Origin: Gemmatimonadota bacterium
GTDB lineage: Bacteria > Gemmatimonadota > Gemmatimonadetes > Gemmatimonadales > Gemmatimonadaceae
NCBI GenBank assembly: GCA_016200495.1
Contig: JACQES010000319.1
Span: 1 to 47,504 of the forward strand
Length of the DNA: 47,504 nucleotides
Direction of reading: 5' to 3'
Position numbers and translations under genes: made by a program. Of this stretch, positions 18,666 through 44,912 are shown piece by piece. A model generated the notes under the pieces. That model saw nothing but the letters and a program-made list of their open reading frames with translations. It searched no databases and was not told the origin of the DNA. Each line of letters starts with the position of its first letter. Position 1 is the first letter of the stretch.

Positions 18666-19361
18666 TCACCCGTGCAGCAGGTCCAGCGCGGCGTCCACGT
18701 GAATGGACGTGGTGTCGAGCAGCGGCAGATCGAGCGCGCCGGCGCCCGGCAGCGCGAGGGGGAGTTCGGTCCCGCCGAGAATCAGGGCCTCGAAGCCGGT
18801 GTTTCGCCGCCAGCGCTGCACCAGCTCCCACAACAGCGCGGCCGTCTCGGGACGGTAGACGCCATGCACGAATTCCTGCATGTAGCGCGCATGGATCAAC
18901 TCCTGGTCGGCCGGCGGGGGCACCACGCACGTGATGCCGGCGCGCGCAAGGCCGGCCTGGTAGTAGCCGCCCTGCATCGTGAATCGCGTCCCGATGAGCC
19001 CCACGTGCCGGAGTCCCAGCGCCCTGGTGGCCTCGACGGTCGCGGTCACGATGCTGATGAGCGGGACGGTGGTGGACGCCTCGAGCGCGTCGAACAGCAG
19101 GTGGGGCGTGTTGGAGGCGAACAGGGCGGCGTCCACGCCGGCGCGCTCGACCTTCCGGAGTTCACCGGCCAGCAACGTCGTCGCGTCGTCGTACCGGCCC
19201 GCGTGCATGAAGGCGAGCATCGGCGCGAGGTTCATGCTGTTGATCACGACCTGCGGATAGCTGCCGTCCGTCGCGCGGGCGCGATGACCGCTCACCAGCT
19301 TCCGGTAGTACTCGATCGTGGACGACGGAGCGATGCCGCCGACGATGCCGAGCGTCTTCAT
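18666..19361 (-). CDS. Aspartate/glutamate racemase-family protein with non-canonical active-site residues
   Basis: MKTLGIVGGIAPSSTIEYYRKLV; ASNTPH and ILGGTELPL motifs. Confidence 0.88.
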   Translation of the reverse strand: MKTLGIVGGIAPSSTIEYYRKLVSGHRARATDGSYPQVVINSMNLAPMLAFMHAGRYDDATTLLAGELRKVERAGVDAALFASNTPHLLFDALEASTTVPLISIVTATVEATRALGLRHVGLIGTRFTMQGGYYQAGLARAGITCVVPPPADQELIHARYMQEFVHGVYRPETAALLWELVQRWRRNTGFEALILGGTELPLALPGAGALDLPLLDTTSIHVDAALDLLHG

Positions 19362-19430: not shown

Positions 19431-19457
19431 ATCACGCCGATCACCCCGATCACGCCG
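19431..19457. repeat. 9-bp tandem repeat (ATCACSCCG x3) spanning a LysR stop codon
   Basis: atcacgccg / atcaccccg / atcacgccg; stop of the minus-strand LysR at 19450-19452. Confidence 0.8.
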
Positions 19458-20415
19458 ACCGCGCCAGCTTGCCGCGCCGTCCCGGCGCCCGCCGCGTCGG
19501 CGGGCCGCCCGGCACGATCTCCAGCACGCTCGGGCCCGTCGCGAGCATGTCGACCAGGGCGCGCACCGCGGCGCGCGGCCTGGCGTGGCGCAGGGCGACG
19601 GCGAACCATTGGCGATGCACGCCGGCGCGCGTGAGCTTCACGGGCACCACGCGGCCGGTCGCGATGGCCGGCTGCACCGCCCAGCGCGCGAGGACGCTCA
19701 CGCCGACGCCGCCGGCGACGAGTTCGAGCGTCGCCTCCGTGAGCATGATCTGGGACACGCGCCGCGGCGCCAGCCCGGCCTCGCGCAGGAGCTGGCCGAG
19801 GAACGACGATCCGGCGGACAGGGACGAATACACCAGCAGGTGCTCACCGCACAGGTCACCGAGCTCCACGTGTCCGCGCTCCGCAAACGGGTGGTCCGGC
19901 GCGGTGACCACGACGAGCTCGTCGCGGAACAGGGGCCATGCCCGGAGGTGACGGCCCGCATGGCGATTCATCATGATGGCGACGTCCACGGAGCCCTCGG
20001 CGAGCGCCGCGAGCGGGTCCGACGTCGCCTCCGCCACGATGCGCAGCTCCACGCCGGCGTGCGTGCGCTCGAAATCGTGCATCACGCGGGGAAGCCAGTG
20101 ATAGGTGGTGTAGCACTCGGTGGCGATCTTCAGGCGATCAACCTCCCCCCGCACGACATTCGTGAGGTCGTCCTCGGCGGCGCGCAGCTCCTCGAGCGTG
20201 CGCTGCGCGGCCAGCAGCACGCGCTCGCCCGCCACCGTCAGGGTCATGCGCTTGCCCAGGCGACGGAAGAGGGGGGTGCCAAGCCGGCGCTCGAGGTTCC
20301 CGAGCATGTGACTGAGGGCCGACTGGCTCAGGTTGAGGTCGCGCGCGCTGCGGGTCATGGTGCCGTGCTGCGCGATGGCCGCAACGAGCTGGAGGTGTCG
20401 CGTTTCGAGGATCAT
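19450..20415 (-). CDS. LysR-family regulator, MetR-like
   Basis: LETRHLQLVAAIAQHGTMTRSARDLNLSQSALSHMLGNLERRLGTPLFRR; ATECYTTYHWLPRVM. Confidence 0.92.
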   Translation of the reverse strand: MILETRHLQLVAAIAQHGTMTRSARDLNLSQSALSHMLGNLERRLGTPLFRRLGKRMTLTVAGERVLLAAQRTLEELRAAEDDLTNVVRGEVDRLKIATECYTTYHWLPRVMHDFERTHAGVELRIVAEATSDPLAALAEGSVDVAIMMNRHAGRHLRAWPLFRDELVVVTAPDHPFAERGHVELGDLCGEHLLVYSSLSAGSSFLGQLLREAGLAPRRVSQIMLTEATLELVAGGVGVSVLARWAVQPAIATGRVVPVKLTRAGVHRQWFAVALRHARPRAAVRALVDMLATGPSVLEIVPGGPPTRRAPGRRGKLARSA

Positions 20416-20488
20416 GGCACGTCTCGACGGCTCGGGAATGTGCTGCAACTGGCGGGGCGGGCCGGGCGCACGCCCCGCGACGTCGGCC

Positions 20489-25076: not shown

Positions 25077-25161
25077 AGCCGGTCGGCCCGCGGCGCCGGA
25101 GCCGATCGACCCGCGGCGCCCTAGCCGGTCGGCCCGCGGCGCCCTAGCCGATCGACCCGCG
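25077..25161. repeat. 23-bp tandem repeat alternating two variants, ~3.7 copies, spanning a LysR stop codon
   Basis: Units at 25077, 25100, 25123, 25146: AGCCG(G/A)TCG(G/A)CCCGCGGCGCC(GG/CT). Confidence 0.92.
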
Positions 25162-26139
25162 CTGCGCGGACGTCCGCCCCGCCGTGGCGGGCACCGCTTG
25201 CGGTCGCACCACCGGCCCGCCCGCCAGCGACGTGCGCAGCAGGTCGCGCAGGTCGAGGAGGTAGGCTGGTGCCGGATCGTCGGCGCGCACGGCCATGAAC
25301 CAGGTGCGCGGACACCCGCGCGGCGTGAACCGCACGGCCGCGAGCGTGCCCGCGCGCACGAGCGGCGCCACCGCCCAGCGCGCGAGCACGCCGACGCCGA
25401 GCCCGGCGGCGACGAGCTCGGTGATCGCCTCGGTGAGCTGGATGCGCGTGAGACGCGCGGGCACGACTCCGGCCGCGTCCAGCACCTCCTGCACCATCGA
25501 CGGCGCGTCGGCGCTGCCGCCGTACAGGATGAGGTGCTCCCGCGCGAATTCCGACGCCGCGACGTGGGTGCGGCGGGCCAAGCGATGGTCGGGCGCCATG
25601 ATCACGACGAGTTCATCATCGAACAGGCGCTCGAGGCGGAGGCGCCGGTCGCGGGGATTCCGGTGGAGGAGCGCGACGTCGAGCAGGCCGTCGCGCAGGG
25701 CGAGGGCGGGATAGTTGGTGTGCTCGGGCGCGATCCGGACGTCGATGCCGGGCCACCGCTCGCGAAACACCTTCAGCACCCCCGGCAGCCAATGGAAGCT
25801 CGTGTAACACTCCGTGGCGAGGCGCACGGCGCCGGACACGTTGGCGAAGGCGCCTCCCGCCACCTGGCGTTCGAAGCTCTCGACCTCGGCGAGCACGCCG
25901 CGCGCGAGTCGCAAGATCCGCTCCCCGGCCGCCGTGGGCTCGAGGCGGCGCGGCGTGCGCACGAAGAGCGGCGTGCGGAGGCGCGTCTCGATGTCGCGCA
26001 GTTGGAGGCTGGCCGCCGGCTGCGTGATGTGGAGGGCGCGGGCCGCTGCGGTCAGGCTGCCATGCGCGGCGATGGCGGCCACGAGCCGCAGGTGCCGGAG
26101 CTCCACGGCGGCGGACCGATCGGCGGGGGACGGGGACAT
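25144..26139 (-). CDS. LysR-family regulator, MetR-like
   Basis: VELRHLRLVAAIAAHGSLTAAARALHITQPAASLQLRDIETRL; ATECYTSFHWLPGVLKVF; shares motifs with the LysR at 19450-20415. Confidence 0.92.
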   Translation of the reverse strand: MSPSPADRSAAVELRHLRLVAAIAAHGSLTAAARALHITQPAASLQLRDIETRLRTPLFVRTPRRLEPTAAGERILRLARGVLAEVESFERQVAGGAFANVSGAVRLATECYTSFHWLPGVLKVFRERWPGIDVRIAPEHTNYPALALRDGLLDVALLHRNPRDRRLRLERLFDDELVVIMAPDHRLARRTHVAASEFAREHLILYGGSADAPSMVQEVLDAAGVVPARLTRIQLTEAITELVAAGLGVGVLARWAVAPLVRAGTLAAVRFTPRGCPRTWFMAVRADDPAPAYLLDLRDLLRTSLAGGPVVRPQAVPATAGRTSAQRGSIG

Positions 26140-26201
26140 GGCGTTCTCGCGGGTGGAGGCGACGGGCGGGGCGCGACGGCGCCGGGCAGCGCGCCGACGA
26201 A

Positions 26202-26218
26202 CATAAGGCACAATTATG
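26202..26218. promoter_or_regulatory. LysR-box candidate in the divergent promoter
   Basis: CATAA-ggcacaa-TTATG inverted repeat (contains T-N11-A) in an AT-rich patch between divergent LysR and cupin genes. Confidence 0.5.
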
Positions 26219-26276
26219 GATAGTATCACGACCCATACAGTGCAAGGATGGCGTGCGGCCGGTGATCGTTGTCCGC

Positions 26277-26753
26277 ATGACCGAATACCGCCCGCACGCC
26301 CACGGCCTGCCGCCGGCCCACACCGAGCACGCCGCCTTTCCTCCGCTCCTCGTCGTGGACCTCGCCGCCACGGCCGCCGCCGTCCGCGTCGCCTATCGCA
26401 ACGACGTCCTGCTCGACGTCAACGACCACTGCCTCCGGCTGGCCGTGATGGTCGGGGGCGAGTCGCGATGGCACGCCCATCCACGGTCCGACGAGTGCTT
26501 CGTCGTGCTCGAGGGGGTCCTGCACGTTGAGCAGGCCGATGGGCGCGATGCGCGCGTGGGCCCTGGCCATGCGTACGCGGTGCCGGCCGGTGTCGTGCAC
26601 CGCACGCGCGCCGAGGGCCGCACGGTGCTGTTGTGCCTCGAGCACCGCGCGGCGTACACCGACGTCGAGTTCGCCACGGAGGACGCGTCCGGTGCTCGGC
26701 CTGCCGCTCTCCCGCCCGCCGAGGCGCCGCCACGGCAGGCGGGCGCGTCATGA
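26277..26753 (+). CDS. Cupin-domain protein
   Basis: SRWHAHPRSDECFVVLEGVLHVEQADGRDARVGPGHAYAVPAGVVHRTRA. Confidence 0.88.
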   Translation: MTEYRPHAHGLPPAHTEHAAFPPLLVVDLAATAAAVRVAYRNDVLLDVNDHCLRLAVMVGGESRWHAHPRSDECFVVLEGVLHVEQADGRDARVGPGHAYAVPAGVVHRTRAEGRTVLLCLEHRAAYTDVEFATEDASGARPAALPPAEAPPRQAGAS

Positions 26754-27382
26754 ACGTCGGCGTCATCGGCGGCGGCACGATGGGGTCGGCCCTCGCCGTG
26801 CGCCTGGCGCGCGCGGGGCACGAGGTCCACGTCGGCACGCGATCCGCCACCACCCCGTGGCCGCTCGCCGCGATCCCCCGCGTCACCTATCAGCAGGCCC
26901 TCGAGGGCCGCGACCTCACCATCATCGCGCTGCCGTGGCCCATCAGCGTCGACGTCCTGCGCGCGCTGGCCGTGCCGCGCGGGCGCGTGCTGGTCGACGT
27001 CGGCAACCCGGAGACGCCCGACGGCCGTGCGCTGGCCGTCGGACACGACACCTCCGGCGCGGAGGTGCTGGCCGCCGCCGTGCCGGGCGCGCGCGTGGTC
27101 AAGGCCTTCAGCCATTACTACGCCGAACTGCTGCGCGAGGACGTCGCGTTCGATGGCGGGCCGGCCAGCGTGCTCTACTGCGGCGACGATGCCGACGCGA
27201 AGGCCGGCGTGCACGCGCTGATCACGAGTTGTGCGCTCGATCCCGTGGATGCGGGACCGCTCGCGATCGCGCGTTTTCTCGAACCGATGGCCATGCTGAC
27301 CGTGGCCCTCGTGCGCGCGCAGGGCTGGGGACCGACCGGCGTGGCGTGGCGCCTGATGCGCCGGCGCGAGGTGGCGTCATGA
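26750..27382 (+). CDS. NADPH-dependent F420-reductase-like Rossmann oxidoreductase
   Basis: MNVGVIGGGTMGSALAVRLARAGHEVHVGTRS; KAFSHYYAELL; ATGA overlaps on both sides. Confidence 0.82.
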   Translation: MNVGVIGGGTMGSALAVRLARAGHEVHVGTRSATTPWPLAAIPRVTYQQALEGRDLTIIALPWPISVDVLRALAVPRGRVLVDVGNPETPDGRALAVGHDTSGAEVLAAAVPGARVVKAFSHYYAELLREDVAFDGGPASVLYCGDDADAKAGVHALITSCALDPVDAGPLAIARFLEPMAMLTVALVRAQGWGPTGVAWRLMRRREVAS

Positions 27383-28665
27383 GCGGCGCCCGCGCGCGGC
27401 GCCCTCGGCGCGCGCACGCCCCGCGCGCCCTTCCGATGCATGGCGATGGCGCAACGGCCACCATCGTCCGCACCGTTCACTCCGGCGTGGTGGGCCTGAC
27501 GGCCGCGGTCCCGGCGCCATTTGCCCGCCGGCTCGGTGGCGTGCGGTTCGTGCAGCGCGGCAGCGTCGAGGAAGCGGTGCACCTCGCGCAGGGGATGGCC
27601 GACAAGTGCGCCGCCAGTCGCGTGCCCCTCGGTGGGCAGAAGGCGCTCATCATCTGCGAGGCGGGGGTGAGCGCCGATCCGGCCGTGCGCGCGGACATGC
27701 TCGCCGCTCACATCCGCGCCACCCTCGCGCTCGAGGCCCGCGGATTGTACGGGCCGGACATGGGCTGCGGATCGGAGGTGCTCGACCGGCTGGCCGGCCA
27801 GCCCCCCTTCGCTGACCACGTCACGGGACTCTCCGAGTCGTGCTTCGGCGTGGACATCAACGGGCGCGCGCTGACGGCGCACGGCGTGGTGGCCGCCCTC
27901 GAGGCGTTCGAGCGCCTGGCGCGGCCGGTTGGTCGCTCGGCGGCGATCCAGGGCTTCGGGATGGTCGGCGCTCCGGTGGCGGCGGAACTCGTCGCGCGCG
28001 GATTCGCCGTGAAGGCGGTGTCGAACGCGCGGGGCGTCCTGCACGATCCGAACGGTCTCGACATCCCCGCCCTTCTCGAACTGTGGCGCGCGCATGGGGA
28101 TGGCTGCCTCGACGCATACCAGGCCCGGCCGGTTGCGGGCGCCCGTGCGTCGACCCTGCGTGCGGACCCCGATCTCCTGTTCGCCATTCCGGTGGATGTC
28201 CTCGTGCCCGCCGCCCGCACGACCGTGCTGGCCTGCCGGGACGAACTGACGTCGGCTCGGGACGAGAACCCGAACGTGGTCGCGATCGAGCGCTTTCTCG
28301 ACGACACGGGCTGCACCCTGATCGCGCAGGCGGCCAATCGTCCGTTGTCCCCCGCCGCGGAATCGGCCGCGGAAGCGCGCGGCGTGGCCCTCCTGCCCGA
28401 CGTGCTGATCAACCACGGCGGGATGGTCGGCTGCTACGCGGAATGGCGCTACCGCCACCTCCTCGCCGACGGGACGATCTCCGCGGATGAACTCGCGGCG
28501 CAGTGCCGCGCGTACTCGGCGCGCGTCGCGGAGGAGAACGTGCGCGCGCTGCTGGCACACGCGGGCCCGGCGCGTACCGCGACGGCCGACATCATCCAGG
28601 CCAACCGGCGCGCGATGGACTCGCTCGACTCGTACGACGACCTGTTCACCCTCGAGCCCACCTGA
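27379..28665 (+). CDS. Glu/Leu/Phe/Val dehydrogenase family protein (atypical)
   Basis: LGGVRFVQRGSVEEAVHLAQGMADKCAASRVPLGGQKALI; GPDMGCGSE; AAIQGFGMVGAPVA; LLPDVLINHGGMVGCYAEW. Confidence 0.88.
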   Translation: MSGARARRPRRAHAPRALPMHGDGATATIVRTVHSGVVGLTAAVPAPFARRLGGVRFVQRGSVEEAVHLAQGMADKCAASRVPLGGQKALIICEAGVSADPAVRADMLAAHIRATLALEARGLYGPDMGCGSEVLDRLAGQPPFADHVTGLSESCFGVDINGRALTAHGVVAALEAFERLARPVGRSAAIQGFGMVGAPVAAELVARGFAVKAVSNARGVLHDPNGLDIPALLELWRAHGDGCLDAYQARPVAGARASTLRADPDLLFAIPVDVLVPAARTTVLACRDELTSARDENPNVVAIERFLDDTGCTLIAQAANRPLSPAAESAAEARGVALLPDVLINHGGMVGCYAEWRYRHLLADGTISADELAAQCRAYSARVAEENVRALLAHAGPARTATADIIQANRRAMDSLDSYDDLFTLEPT

Positions 28666-28690
28666 CGGACCACCTACCGGGGATCCACCG

Positions 28691-29248
28691 ATGCAGCATC
28701 GAACGATAGCCTTTCCCGCGTACTCCGAATACTCGAACGCGACCCTCCTCGCCGCGTTCACGGCCGGTGCCGCGCGCCTGCGCGCCTCGCTCGCCGGGCT
28801 GTCCGACGCGCAGTGCCATACGCGGGTGCGCGGGCCCACGCGCTGGTCCATCCACGAGATCGTGCTGCACATTGCCGACTCGGAGACGCAGGGCACGTTC
28901 CGCATCCGCAAGGTGTGGTCCGATCCGCCCGCGACCTGGCCGATCTTCGACCAGGACGTGTGGGCCAAGGAGCTGGACTATGCGGCCTCGGGTGCACCGG
29001 CGCGCGAACGGGCCCTCACCCTGCTGGAACTGCTGCGCGAGCGCACGGCGCCGCTGTTCGCTCGCGCGACCGACGCGGACTGGGCCAAGTGGGGCACGCA
29101 CCCCGAGTTCGGCCGGATGACCCTGCGCAACCTGCTGGAGCTGTACGCCGACCACGTCGAGCGTCACATCGAGCAGGTCCTCGAGTCCCGGCGGCTGCTG
29201 GGTCACCCGCTGGAGATGGACGCCCCGTTGCCGCGCCGGCTCTACTGA
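28691..29248 (+). CDS. DinB-family protein
   Basis: [24 protein letters not shown]...[20 protein letters not shown]; DinB-like His positions. Confidence 0.85.
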
Positions 29249-29370: not shown

Positions 29371-31341
29371 ATGAACTCCGCCGGCCGCCTCGCCCTCCTC
29401 GCCGCGACCCTGTTCGCGAGCGCCCCGTCCGCCCACGCGCAGCCGCAGGCGCCGACCGCCGAGGCGCAGGCGCGGCTCCGCGCACGGCGCGACTCCCTCG
29501 AAGCCGAGCTGCAGCGCGTGGCGGTCGTGGACCGCAAGCGCATGGTGGCCATGCGCGATGGCGTGCGCATGCAGGCGGACATCTACCGCCCGAAGAACGC
29601 GACCGACGGCGTGCCCGTCATCTTCAGCCGCACCCCGTACAACTTCAACTGGTGGGACGTGCGCCTCGGCGCGCCGTCGGACATGAGCACCGCGCTCGAG
29701 GCGGTGAAGCGCGGCTACGCGTACGTGATCATGAACGAGCGCGGCCACTTCTACTCCGAGGGGAACTACGACATCCTCGGCGCGCCGCTCTCCGACGGCA
29801 CCGACGCCATTCAGTGGATATCCGGACAGCCGTGGTCGAACGGCAAGGTGGGGCTGATCGGGTGCTCGAGCACGGCCGAGTGGCAGATGGCGGTGGCGGC
29901 GCAGGCGCCCAAGGGGCTGGCGACGATCATTCCGCAGGGCTTCGGTGCGGGGGTCGGGCGCGTGGCGCCCTATTTCGAGCAGGGGAACTGGTACCGGGGC
30001 GGCGCGGTGCAGATGCTGTTCATCGCGTGGCTGTATGGCGAGCAGAACCAGGTGCGGCCGATGTTCCCGCCCAACGCCACGCAGGCGCAGCTGATCCAGG
30101 CGTCCAAGCTGTTCGACCTGGCGCCGCAGATGCCGCCGGTGGACTGGGACAAGGCGCTGGCCAAGCTGCCGAGCATCAGCATCATGGAGGCGGTGGGGGG
30201 CCCCCGGGGGATCTTCGCCGACTCGATGGAGGGGATCGCGACCGGCGGCGCGATGATGAAGCGGAAGCCCAACGACCCGGCGTGGTACAAGGGCGGGCTC
30301 TTCCACGACGACATGGTGATCAACGTGCCGGGGCTCTGGTTCATGTCGTGGTACGACGTGAGCGTCGGGCCGAACCTCGCGACGTACAACCACGTGCGGA
30401 AGACGGCGCGCTCCGAGATCGCGAACCAGCAGTACGCGGTGATCGCGCCGGTGCTCCACTGCTCGTACAAGCGCGCGACGGAGAACACCATCGTGGGCGA
30501 GCGGAGCGTGGGTGACGCGCGCCTGGACTATGACGCGCTCACTTTCGGGTGGTTCGACCACTTCCTCAAGGGGGAGCAGAACGGGCTGCTCGACACGCTG
30601 CCCAGGATCCGCTACTTCACGATGGGCGCGAACAAGTGGCAGACCACGGACACGTGGCCGCCGCGCGGCGCGGAGACGCTCGCGTTCTATCTCTCGAGCG
30701 ACGGCGGCGCGAACACCAAGGACGGCAACGGGCAGCTCACGCTCACGCCCCCGAAGACGGACAAGCCCGACACCTTCGAGTACGATCCGATGCACCCGGT
30801 GCCGAGCTACGGCGGCAACGTCTGCTGCACGGGGAACGCGGTGAGGGGCGGCGCCTTCGACCAGCAGCAGATGGAGGCGCGGAAGGACATCCTCGTCTAC
30901 ACGAGCGAGCCGCTCAAGGAGGGGATGGAAGTGAGCGGCCCCGTGGAGCTCACCGTGTACGTGAGCACCAACGTCAAGGACACCGACTTCACGGTGAAGC
31001 TCATCGACGTGGGCCCCGACGGAAAGGCCTACAACCTGGACGAGTCCATCCAGCGCGCGCGCTACCGCGAGGGCTACGACAAGGAAGTGTTCATGGAGCC
31101 GGGCAAGGTGTACCCGGTCAAGATCGGGCCGCTCACCACGAGCAACTACTTCGCGCCGGGGCACCGCCTCCGGATCGAGGTGTCGAGCTCGAACTTCCCG
31201 CGCTTCGACCGGAACATGAACACTGGCGGCAGGAACTATGATGAAGTGACGGGGCCGGTGGCGACGAACGTGGTGCACCACTCGACCAGGTATCCCACCA
31301 AGCTCACGGTGACGGTTGTGAAGAAGGCGCCGCAGCCGTAG
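29371..31341 (+). CDS. CocE/NonD family hydrolase (X-Pro dipeptidyl-peptidase S15-like), secreted
   Basis: Signal [77 protein letters not shown]-terminal jelly roll. Confidence 0.92.
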
Positions 31342-32201: not shown

Positions 32202-34037
32202 CTACGGCAGCACGCTCAGTTCGAGGTGCGACGGTGCGCTGGCCGAGTGGTGCACGCGGTGTTCCTGCGCGCGGTAGTCGCCCGGCTTCGCGCGGAAGAT
32301 GTTGGGGACGAAGGTCTGCGGGTTCCGGTCGTAGAGCGGGAACCAGGTGCTCTGCACCTGCACCATGAGCCGGTGCCCCGCCTTGACGGTGTACGCCTGC
32401 TGGTGCAGGTCCACCGTGTACGGGAGCACGGCGTTCGCCTTGATCGGGCGCGCGACGTCGAACCCCTCGCGGTAGCGCCCGCGCAGGATGTCGCTCGCGA
32501 TCATCAGTTCGTAGCCGCGCATCGGCGCGCGGTCCACGCCCGAGTCGGGGTACACGTCAATCAGCTTGACCACCCAGTCGGCGTCGGTGCCGGTGGTCGA
32601 GGCGAAGAGCCTGGCCACCACGCCGCCCGCGATCACGAGGTCGCGCTCCAGCGAGGCCGACTGCCAGGTGAGCACGTCGGGGCGCCCGTCCACGAACCGC
32701 TGGTCGCGCACGAGCCACGTTTCCCACTCGACGTACGAGGGGATCGGCCGCGGGCGATAGGGCACGGGTGACGCGGGATCGGAGGTGAAGCGCGTGAAGC
32801 CCGACGCGGCGGTGCCGGGCTCGAACGCCAGCGTGCCGTGCTCGCGGAGGTACAGCTTGCGCACCGCGGCCGCGCGCGGCGGCCACGCGTCGAAGGTGCG
32901 CCACTGGTTGGTGCCGGCGTCGAACACGGTCGCGACGGGGATCTCGCCGTCCACGCGATCGTGCAGCCACCGGCGGAAGAAGCGCGCCTGCAGCGCGCGG
33001 AAATCGTCGCCGGTGTTGCGGCCGAAGCGGATGGCGCCGAGCGAGTCGCCGGCCTCGTCGTACCACTCGCCGTGGAACCAGGGCCCGATGACGATGCGGC
33101 TCAGGCCGGCCGTGTCCGTCTTCGCGAGTGCCCTGAACGACGCCTGCGGCCCGTAGCCATCTTCCTGGTCCCAGAAGCCGCCGACGGTGAGCGTCGGGAT
33201 GGTGGTGTGCGTGAGGTAGCGGTCCACGGCGCGGTCGCGCCAGACGGCGTCGTACGCCGGGTGCTCGACGAAGCGCTGCCAGGTCGGCCACCTGGCCGCG
33301 CCCGTGAAGGCGGCGAGCGAGTCGAGCGTCGGGAACGCGCGATACCAGTCGTAGGTGTCCCAGCGGGTGATGCGGAGCGGCCCGGTGCCCGCGGCCTTCG
33401 CCTCGCGACCGTGCACCCACTCGATGCCGTACGACTGGCGGAACGCGCCTTGGTGGAAGAAGTCGTCGCCCATCCACGTGTCCACCATCGGCGCCTGCGG
33501 GCTCATGGCCTTGAGCGCGGGGTGCGGTTCGACCATCGCCGCGTTCACGAGGTAGCCGGGGTACGAGATGCCGAGCATCCCCACCTTGTGCGCGGCCTGC
33601 GGCACGTTGGCGAAGAGCCACTCGATCGTGTCCCACGTGTCGGTGGCCTCGTCGATGCTGCGCGGGTCCCTGCGGTCGCGCGGCGGGCGGTTCATCACGA
33701 ACGTCCCCTCGGACTGGTGCTGTCCGCGGATGTCCTGGAAGACGAACACGTAGCCGTCGGCGATCAGCTCCTTGAAGGCGACCGCGATGTTGACGGTGCC
33801 GCCCCATCCCGCCGTGCCGTACGGGGTGCGCGACAGCAGCACGGGAAGCGCCGCGGACGCACGCTTCGGCACGAGGACCACCGTGAACAGCTTCACCCCG
33901 TCCCGCATGGGGATCATCGCCTCGCGCCGCTCGAACAGCGCGTCGACGCGGGGATCGGCCGGGCGCTGCGCGCCGACGGCCTGCACCGATGCGGAGACGA
34001 ACGCGAGGGCGGCGAGCGGGGCAATCAACGAGCGCAT
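32202..34037 (-). CDS. CocE/NonD family hydrolase (S15-like), secreted
   Basis: Signal MRSLIAPLAALAFVSASVQAVGAQ; VGMLGISYPGYLVNAAMVEPHPALKAMSPQAP; C-terminal jelly roll. Confidence 0.92.
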   Translation of the reverse strand: MRSLIAPLAALAFVSASVQAVGAQRPADPRVDALFERREAMIPMRDGVKLFTVVLVPKRASAALPVLLSRTPYGTAGWGGTVNIAVAFKELIADGYVFVFQDIRGQHQSEGTFVMNRPPRDRRDPRSIDEATDTWDTIEWLFANVPQAAHKVGMLGISYPGYLVNAAMVEPHPALKAMSPQAPMVDTWMGDDFFHQGAFRQSYGIEWVHGREAKAAGTGPLRITRWDTYDWYRAFPTLDSLAAFTGAARWPTWQRFVEHPAYDAVWRDRAVDRYLTHTTIPTLTVGGFWDQEDGYGPQASFRALAKTDTAGLSRIVIGPWFHGEWYDEAGDSLGAIRFGRNTGDDFRALQARFFRRWLHDRVDGEIPVATVFDAGTNQWRTFDAWPPRAAAVRKLYLREHGTLAFEPGTAASGFTRFTSDPASPVPYRPRPIPSYVEWETWLVRDQRFVDGRPDVLTWQSASLERDLVIAGGVVARLFASTTGTDADWVVKLIDVYPDSGVDRAPMRGYELMIASDILRGRYREGFDVARPIKANAVLPYTVDLHQQAYTVKAGHRLMVQVQSTWFPLYDRNPQTFVPNIFRAKPGDYRAQEHRVHHSASAPSHLELSVLP

Positions 34038-34209
34038 GGCGGGTCCAGGTCGGTGAAAGGATGTCCCTGCGAGAACAACGGAGCCTCGATCTCGCCGAGC
34101 ACGCATCCCGGAAACGATACGTGCGCGACGCCGACGGCAAGGCGCGACGCCTCTTCGGCCCGTCGCACGCCCCCACCGAGGAGCGCGCGCCCGCCGCGCG
34201 CCGACCGCG

Positions 34210-42346: not shown

Positions 42347-43120
42347 TCAGGCGTAGAGCGCCGCCGGGTCCGCCGCCGCGAGCTCGACGAGAAACTCCCC
42401 CAGCTGCACCGCGACGGCCTCGAAGAACGCAGCGCCCTTCTCGCGCGTCGCCTGCGCCGGGTTGCCGACCCCCGTATCGTCGGTGACCGACACCCAGTGG
42501 CGCGGCGTCCACGCCCACCCCTCGCGGAAGCCGCGCACCACCGACGGCCGCGCGGCGCCGGGTCCCGCTTCCGACACAGGGCGCGTGATGTGAGGGGCCA
42601 GGTGCAGCATCACGCTCGTCTCGAGTTCGCCGGCATGGTCGCCCGGTTCCGCGAAGTGCCGTGCGGGCTGAGCGAGCGTCCACCAGTTCACCAACGCGAG
42701 CAGGAGTCCCGCCGTCGGCTGCAGCTCGCGGATGATCGGCTTGAACTCGTTGCCGCCGTGGCCGTTGATGATCACGAGCTTCCGCACGCCGTGCGCGGCC
42801 ACCGTGTGCACGATGTCGCGCAGCACCGCGAGCTGCGTGCTCGGGTTCATGTTGAGGCAGAACGGCACCTCGCGCTGCGTCGTCTGCACGCCGAACGGGA
42901 CGGCGGGCAGCACCAGCACCCGCGCGCCGTGCTCCCACGCGCGCCCCGCCCCCGCGATCGCCACCTGCTCGGCCTGGATCGTGTCCGTCGCGTACGGCAG
43001 GTGGCGGTTGTGCGCCTCGGTCGCCCCCCACGGCAGGAGCGCCACCTCGTAGCGCTGCGTGCGCAGCGCCTCCCATGTGCACTCGGCGAGGACGTACGGA
43101 CGCGCGCTCACGCGAACCAC
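42347..43120 (-). CDS. Creatininase family protein
   Basis: VALLPWGATEAHNRHLPYATDTIQAEQVA; RKLVIINGHGGNEFKPIIRE; GTG start likely. Confidence 0.9.
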   Translation of the reverse strand: MVRVSARPYVLAECTWEALRTQRYEVALLPWGATEAHNRHLPYATDTIQAEQVAIAGAGRAWEHGARVLVLPAVPFGVQTTQREVPFCLNMNPSTQLAVLRDIVHTVAAHGVRKLVIINGHGGNEFKPIIRELQPTAGLLLALVNWWTLAQPARHFAEPGDHAGELETSVMLHLAPHITRPVSEAGPGAARPSVVRGFREGWAWTPRHWVSVTDDTGVGNPAQATREKGAAFFEAVAVQLGEFLVELAAADPAALYA

Positions 43121-43184
43121 CCGCCTCGCACCACCGCGCGACCGTCCATGTGCACGCCCGGCTGCGCACGCCCGCGCGTGCCGC

Positions 43185-44912
43185 TCACGACTCGTACACC
43201 CAGCGCCCGCCCACCATGGTGCGCTCGATGGGGACGTTCACGATCTCGATCGCCGGCACGGTACGCGGGTCGCGGCCGAGCACCACGAGGTCGGCGAGCT
43301 TGCCGACGGTGAGCGATCCCTTGAGGTGCTCCTCGTACGACGCGTACGCGCCGTTCATCGTCAGCACGGTGAGCGCCTCGGCGAGGGTGATGCGCTGGTT
43401 CGCGCCCCAGGTCGTGCCCTTGAGGTCGGTGCGCGTGGTCATCGAGGTGAGCGCCATCATCGGCTCGAAGGGGCCGGGCGGATAGTCGCTCCCCATCGCC
43501 GCCCGGATGCCGGCATCGAGGAACCAGCGCATCGGGAACATCCGCCCGGTCCGCTTCGCGCCGTACTCGCCCATCTTCTCGCCGTGGAAGTACACGTAGC
43601 TCGCGAACGGCGTGGGGATCGCGCCGAGCGCCTTGATGCGCGCGATGAGCTCGGGGGTGAGCACCGTGCAGTGCTCGTAGCGGAGGCGGGGGTCCTTGCG
43701 CGGCATCGCCTTGATGAGCCGCTCGTACAGGCCGGTCACGATCTCGATCGCGGCATCGCCGTTCGCGTGCGTGCCGATCTGCCACCCGGCCGCGTGCACC
43801 TTGGTGAAGATCGTCCACAGCTCCTCGGCCTTCATGACCTCGATGCCGCGATCGCTCGGGCGGCCCACGTACGGCTCGGCCAGGAGCGCGGTGCGCTCGG
43901 AGATCGAGCCGTCACTGATGCACTTGACCGCGCCGACGCGCACCCACTCGTCGCCGAGCCCGGTGCGAACGCCGGCCGCGATCATGCGGTCGACGAAGGC
44001 GTAGTTGATGTGGCAGTACGCGCGATGGCGCAGTGTCCCAGCCTCGCGCGCGTCCTGGTAGGCGAGCAGCTCGGTGGGCGTCCCCTGCGCTTCGGTGGCC
44101 GATGTCACGCCGGTCGCCACGAGCCGCCGCGAGATTTCGGCCGCTCCCCTGGCGTAGTCGTCGCGCGTGTAGTCCTTGGCGTCGGCGGCGCGGATGACCC
44201 CCGCGGCCGTCTCGGCCACGCGCCCCGTGAGCTGCCCGTTGGCGTCGCGCTCGAAGCGGCCCCCGGCCGGGTTCGGGGTGTCGGCGGTGACGTGCGCGCG
44301 CGCGAACGCGAGCGAGTTCACGTAGCCCGTGTGTCCGCCGCGGTGCTCGACATAGATCGGATGCGTCGTGCTCACGGCGTCCAGGTCGGCGCGGGTGAGG
44401 AAGCGCCCTTCCTTCGTCTTCGTGTCGTCGTACTTGAAGCCGCGGATCCACTCACCGGCGGGGGTCCGGGCTGCGCGCTCGCGCAGCGCCGCCTGGATCG
44501 CGCCGATCGAGCGGAGGTCGCAGTCTACCTCGTAGAGGTGGCGAACGCCGGCGTACACCGGGTGGTTGTGCGCGTCGATCACGCCGGGAATCACGACCTT
44601 CCGTCCGAGATCGGTGATCGTGGTGCCGGCCCGGGCGAGCGCGCGCATGTCGGCGTTGGAGCCGATGGCCACGATCCGCCCCCGGGCGATCGCGAGAGCC
44701 TCGGCGCGAGGCAGGGCCGGGTCCTGCGTGAGGAGATCGCCGTTCACGAGCACGAGCTCGGGCGTCTCGAACGGCTGAGGCGGCAGCGTGGGCCGGAGCG
44801 GTGCGAGCGGCCCGTGCCCGCCGTCGCGCGGCACGGCGCCGAGGGCGCGGGCGGTCGCGGGAAGTGCCGCGAGCGCGGCGGTCTGTCCCAGGAAGGTACG
44901 GCGCGACGTCAT
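43185..44912 (-). CDS. Tat-signal amidohydrolase (YtcJ-like)
   Basis: MTSRRTFLGQTAALAALPATARA; VVIPGVIDAHNHPVYAG; VHAAGWQIGTHANGDAAIEIV; MALTSMTTRTDLKG. Confidence 0.92.
   Translation of the reverse strand: MTSRRTFLGQTAALAALPATARALGAVPRDGGHGPLAPLRPTLPPQPFETPELVLVNGDLLTQDPALPRAEALAIARGRIVAIGSNADMRALARAGTTITDLGRKVVIPGVIDAHNHPVYAGVRHLYEVDCDLRSIGAIQAALRERAARTPAGEWIRGFKYDDTKTKEGRFLTRADLDAVSTTHPIYVEHRGGHTGYVNSLAFARAHVTADTPNPAGGRFERDANGQLTGRVAETAAGVIRAADAKDYTRDDYARGAAEISRRLVATGVTSATEAQGTPTELLAYQDAREAGTLRHRAYCHINYAFVDRMIAAGVRTGLGDEWVRVGAVKCISDGSISERTALLAEPYVGRPSDRGIEVMKAEELWTIFTKVHAAGWQIGTHANGDAAIEIVTGLYERLIKAMPRKDPRLRYEHCTVLTPELIARIKALGAIPTPFASYVYFHGEKMGEYGAKRTGRMFPMRWFLDAGIRAAMGSDYPPGPFEPMMALTSMTTRTDLKGTTWGANQRITLAEALTVLTMNGAYASYEEHLKGSLTVGKLADLVVLGRDPRTVPAIEIVNVPIERTMVGGRWVYES

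Follow-up and report, generated by a model that had tools for sequence, protein, structure and literature searches.

A member of a rare and apparently undescribed branch of amino-acid dehydrogenases, probably controlled by a divergent LysR-type regulator

Does the gene cluster around an atypical ELFV dehydrogenase in a Gemmatimonadota bacterium encode a pathway, and on what kind of substrate does this enzyme act? The cluster lies on a stretch of 47,504 nucleotides (contig C33), which we refer to as the window. Its features are as follows.

25144..26139, minus strand: LysR-type regulator (Pfam HTH_1 and LysR_substrate), with a likely ATG start at 26139 and a longer GTG frame to 26229
26203..26217, no strand: T-N11-A operator-like palindrome ATAAGGCACAATTAT, between the LysR and cupin genes
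26277..26753, plus strand: small cupin (Pfam Cupin_2), both metal-ligand motifs intact (GGESRWHAHPRSDECFVVLEG, GHAYAVPAGVVHRTR)
26750..27382, plus strand: NpdG-like NAD(P)-binding reductase of the F420_oxidored family (Pfam 4e-12; PDB 1jax 1.8e-19)
27379..28665, plus strand: ELFV dehydrogenase of a rare subfamily (Pfam ELFV_dehydrog and N-terminal domain, tree, alignment, fold model)
28691..29248, plus strand: DinB_2 protein (Pfam 1e-18); H60, H155 and H159 form a probable three-His metal site

The five-gene layout, in which LysR diverges from the cupin, reductase, dehydrogenase and DinB genes, is as an earlier reading of this DNA (the sequence-only reading) had described it. ATGA overlaps join the cupin to the reductase (ATGAA at 26750) and the reductase to the dehydrogenase (ATGAG at 27379), again as proposed. 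The overlapping dehydrogenase start is supported by a Shine-Dalgarno-like GAGGTGG that precedes its ATG, and that is lacking at the next in-frame ATG (27436). The DinB gene starts 25 bases past the dehydrogenase stop, without overlap. A scan for sigma-70 promoters and terminators found nothing. GC3 is 0.87-0.91 across the cupin, reductase, dehydrogenase and DinB genes; the contig has 72% GC, distributed fairly evenly, and comes from an assembly of 4.1 Mb in 431 contigs (85.65% complete, 2.18% contamination).

The efflux operon reported next door is present and comprises a MacB/FtsX permease, an ABC ATPase and a HlyD-type adaptor. On its far side, another LysR gene (43% identity to the first) adjoins genes for an Asp/Glu racemase and an S13 D-Ala-D-Ala carboxypeptidase (19453-20448, 18669-19361). 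Two hydrolases of the S15 X-Pro dipeptidyl-peptidase family follow the cassette (29371-31341 and 32202-34106); together with a creatininase and an amidohydrolase at 42347-44912 they make the contig rich in peptide/amide hydrolases.

The sequence-only reading had named one outcome that would speak against its pathway, absence of the gene set beyond this genome, and as far as the check could be run the result went against a conserved pathway: no other genome that was checked yielded the four-gene set. At the nine other dehydrogenase loci, several of which end at contig ends, there is no cupin, NpdG-like or DinB gene nearby, and none of the remaining set genes was found in the 18 reductase-family neighbourhoods examined. 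The reductase family is common (53 of 118 genomes) and cupin relatives occur in 46 of the same 118; by the coordinates of the matches listed, the cupin relatives do not lie beside the reductase matches. In the two other genomes of the genus, none of the LysR, dehydrogenase, reductase and DinB proteins has a close relative at the thresholds used. We therefore reject a conserved four-gene cassette on the dehydrogenase loci, the reductase loci and the cupin and DinB surveys, in which LysR-DinB alone recurred. The cupin-reductase-dehydrogenase trio was found only at the window locus, so that the operon layout is the one line of evidence for a joint pathway. A search of the open-licence literature found no described pathway that combines these families.

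The recurring part of the locus is the pair formed by LysR (LysR_substrate 7.5e-44, HTH_1 9.8e-21) and DinB. In a survey of 394 genomes of the class, the DinB proteins most closely related to that of the window (43-54% identity) are those of G194, G290, G1074, G026 and G288, which with G1097 and the window protein form a clade of seven (support 100/100). A LysR that is 42-53% identical to the window LysR adjoins DinB in G288, G290 and G1074, and LysR-DinB adjacency is thus seen in four of the seven clade members, the window included. Beside the more distant DinB proteins (36-40%), for which mostly short flanks were examined, no such LysR was found. The clade DinB genes have a class-V aminotransferase nearby in G288 and a PhzF-like gene in G290. 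In G194 (L233 1-4340), a PLP decarboxylase gene overlaps that of the DinB relative (54%); a saccharopine-dehydrogenase-like gene follows downstream, and a PALP enzyme is encoded upstream. By association only, these neighbours point to amino-acid metabolism.

Recurrence of LysR-DinB adjacency without the trio, in a survey where the four-gene set was not found elsewhere, would also be expected if LysR and DinB were the real unit and the intervening trio had been assembled in this lineage without a common pathway. We consider such a chance arrangement unlikely, as two ATGA overlaps with a good ribosome site suggest that the trio is translationally coupled.

The LysR-DinB pairs also bear on regulation. 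The T-N11-A arrangement is the usual LysR-type site, and the palindrome between LysR and the cupin is the sole ATAA-N7-TTAT in the window, with 0.00 expected in shuffles. In G1074, ATAAATAGTATTTAT (read on the LysR strand) lies between LysR and the divergent DinB as a single copy, with 0.01 expected; since ATAA-N7-TTAT was picked after viewing the window, this occurrence is the cleanest test of the pattern. In G290, ATGAATGCCTTTCAT is located just upstream of LysR, and the search in G288 gave a weak palindrome only. A T-N11-A palindrome is thus found upstream of LysR in three of the four LysR-DinB pairs. The relaxed form ATRA-N7-TYAT gave p = 0.005, 0.014 and 0.044, values that are descriptive because this form was picked after viewing the other boxes. 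The palindrome, unique in the window, and the LysR-DinB adjacency in other genomes lend support to a divergent LysR regulation, and the dehydrogenase is probably under this control. The pairing and its candidate operator also provide a physiological handle on DinB proteins, the natural substrates of which are mostly unknown.

The dehydrogenase belongs to the ELFV superfamily, with matches to PF00208 (ELFV_dehydrog, 2.9e-26; 93.1 bits against a gathering threshold of 23.4) and to the N-terminal domain PF02812 (3.6e-7; 30.4 against 25.3). Its best score against the NCBIfam glutamate dehydrogenase equivalogs, 82.5 bits, is far below the cut-off of 620. At E <= 1e-30, just one other of 295 genomes of the class contains a relative (42% identity). 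Two short conserved stretches served as seeds for a scan of 84,980 species genomes, which located close relatives only in Gemmatimonadota, Planctomycetota, Myxococcota and one MAG labelled proteobacterium. Profile searches in two further phyla identified the subfamily in 3 genomes out of 331 and in 4 out of 343. Across three phyla, about 1% of the genomes sampled contain it. Members score above 300 bits and all other proteins at most 170; a gene that is divided between two contigs contributes pieces of 303.6 and 194.8 bits. A plasmid search returned distant ELFV relatives only (at most 31.7% identity among the 20 matches listed). In a quick tree the subfamily is monophyletic, forming one side of a branch with SH-aLRT 99. 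The nearest sequence to it is L181, the Leu/Trp-dehydrogenase-type enzyme of the same genome, in a placement (SH-aLRT 92, short branch of 0.063) that comes from a midpoint-rooted tree free of characterised references. We conclude that the dehydrogenase represents a rare, apparently undescribed branch of amino-acid dehydrogenases. Two Planctomycetota loci of the subfamily (L006 and L175) have common neighbours: a gene for a very large protein of secreted type lies beside the dehydrogenase gene, and both loci have a response regulator paired with a histidine kinase.

The motifs quoted earlier (MADKCA, GGQK, GPDMGCGSE and INHGGMVGCYAEW) are all present in the protein, and we aligned ten subfamily members with 22 other ELFV proteins. 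K76, K88 and D127 occupy the positions of the conserved lysines and Asp of ELFV enzymes and are invariant within the subfamily; with the GxGxxG motif (G192/G194/G197), the two active-site lysines and the catalytic Asp are the residues expected of an ELFV enzyme. Roles of both lysines and of the Asp have been described in leucine dehydrogenase (PMC6033044), so that the substrate is more likely to be an amino acid than an amine. An amine-dehydrogenase reading is further disfavoured by the invariance of K76, the alpha-carboxylate lysine, and by the retained Asn320. For the suggested multistep conversion of an amine or amino acid, a conserved four-gene pathway finds no support, and the amine alternative loses ground.

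Two positions that bind the side-chain carboxylate in glutamate dehydrogenase are changed. The K89 position is I, V or L in the subfamily (L52 in the window protein) and K in 18 of the 22 others; the S380 position is C in the subfamily (C352) and S in 16 of the 22. Lys89 and Ser380, which determine specificity, correspond to Leu40 and Val294 of leucine dehydrogenase (PMC2723916). The glutamate pair is therefore lost, and L52 is a hydrophobic residue of the kind found in Leu/Phe/Trp dehydrogenases. Departures from the usual ELFV segments had been taken to suggest an altered substrate. The enzyme is indeed atypical, and its specificity positions differ from glutamate dehydrogenase throughout the subfamily, but part of the departure reflects the comparison with GDH-type sequences; the K-A-L-I that follows the catalytic lysine and the LTAHG segment resemble L181.

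The AlphaFold2 model of the dehydrogenase (pLDDT 90.9, pTM 0.90) has a confident GDH-type fold, and the solved structures listed as matches comprise glutamate dehydrogenases plus one phosphinothricin dehydrogenase (TM 0.64-0.71, values that domain closure may have lowered). The fold and these best matches are what an ordinary glutamate dehydrogenase that had drifted would give. We regard this origin as very improbable, given that the side-chain lysine is replaced by L, I or V and S380 by C in the whole subfamily, and that the genome has a separate glutamate dehydrogenase gene, although that copy is damaged as assembled. About 33 residues around the catalytic Asp are missing from this gene (L180; G000:C222, 1970-3154), which has an early TAG stop. 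Both same-genus genomes are intact at the gap, and the gene may be broken or the assembly in error.

Other changes affect positions that are otherwise fixed. Directly ahead of the catalytic lysine, all 10 subfamily members have Q or E (Q87, preceding K88, in the window protein) and all 22 others G or A, and an insertion of about 19 residues after PAART is a subfamily signature. N216 occupies the place of the cofactor-fold Asp of 19 of the 22 other proteins, with N, A, V, Y or F in the other members, and position 346 is H in the window protein and C in the rest. These changes, together with the NCGG/NHGG loop and the long stem branch of 0.99 changes per column, could mean that the subfamily has moved off ordinary amino-acid dehydrogenation, and that the fold has been adapted to another substrate class or chemistry, such as a cyclic imino acid, a modified amino acid or a different 2-oxo acid reaction. 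We find this possible but doubtful, because the three catalytic residues and both carboxylate-side contacts (K76 and N320) are kept. With similarly low confidence, we speculate that the subfamily represents an NAD(P) enzyme of new function built on the ELFV fold, with Q/E by the catalytic lysine and a substrate outside those of the characterised amino-acid dehydrogenases, and that in the window lineage it acts in a LysR-controlled pathway with the cupin, the NpdG-like reductase and DinB.

On balance we lean towards a LysR-controlled, lineage-specific amino-acid utilisation operon, built around a non-glutamate L-alpha-amino-acid dehydrogenase. LysR would bind the T-N11-A palindrome of the divergent promoter and, in response to a small effector, switch on the presumably co-transcribed cupin, reductase, dehydrogenase and DinB genes. 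The dehydrogenase would use NAD(P) to deaminate oxidatively, or to form by reductive amination, an L-alpha-amino acid that is not glutamate. As in Leu/Phe dehydrogenase, the alpha-carboxylate would be held by K76 and the amino group by D127, with K88 activating water, and the side-chain pocket is predicted to be neutral (L52, C352) and not carboxylate-binding. Normal catalysis is not assured, since Q87 and N216 depart from the 22 other ELFV proteins, and the substrate cannot be read from the dehydrogenase sequence. The cupin, reductase and DinB protein may handle the substrate or the product. The cupin (Cupin_2, 4.5e-15) keeps both metal motifs, the reductase also aligns with STEAP domains, and the DinB_2 match (68.5 bits against a gathering threshold of 24.8) is well within its domain family. 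ELFV dehydrogenases are well studied and have been engineered for chiral amine synthesis; a deep three-phylum branch with an altered pocket and an altered neighbour of the catalytic lysine is therefore a ready test case for specificity.

Comparison with known systems relates the regulator, the reductase and the DinB protein to described families. The regulator shares with MetR and other LysR-type regulators the HTH_1 and LysR substrate domains and a T-N11-A palindrome in a divergent promoter. Its description as MetR-like stands as a best-family resemblance, but not as membership (129.8 bits against a cut-off of 382, NCBIfam NF011950), and the box in the window has the form ATAA-N7-TTAT, although TGAA-N5-TTCA does fit the box of G290. 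The alignment with NpdG/F420H2:NADP oxidoreductase (1jax) spans the whole reductase, which has the GxGxMG nucleotide motif. The label F420-reductase-like similarly holds for the nearest family, whereas the score of 65 bits lies below the NpdG cut-off of 149.8 (TIGR01915), and F420 use is putative for this protein. The DinB protein resembles the DinB/YfiT (S-transferase-like) superfamily, for example the bacillithiol transferase BstA, in its DinB_2 domain and probable three-His metal set; at 67 bits against the YfiT cut-off of 160 the relation is a predicted one. All eight B. subtilis members of this superfamily are metal-dependent bacillithiol transferases (PMC5815605).

The dehydrogenase combines features of two groups. 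With the hexameric glutamate dehydrogenases (8s38, 6yeh, 8owm) it shares the full-length predicted fold, a length of about 420 residues, both lysines, the Asp, and the GPDM-type and GG..EW segments. It differs from them in overall sequence (22-25% identity), in the replacements K89 to L, S380 to C, A/G to Q before the catalytic lysine and D to N on the cofactor side, and in the insertion after PAART. Compared with Leu/Phe/Trp dehydrogenases (1leh, 1c1d, 5b37; ScyB), in contrast, it has a full GDH-type C-terminus, so that the N-terminal half alone aligns well, and it scores 42 bits against the ScyB cut-off of 600. It nevertheless shares with this group the non-Lys residue at the K89 position, the LTAHG segment and the non-glycine residues after the catalytic lysine.
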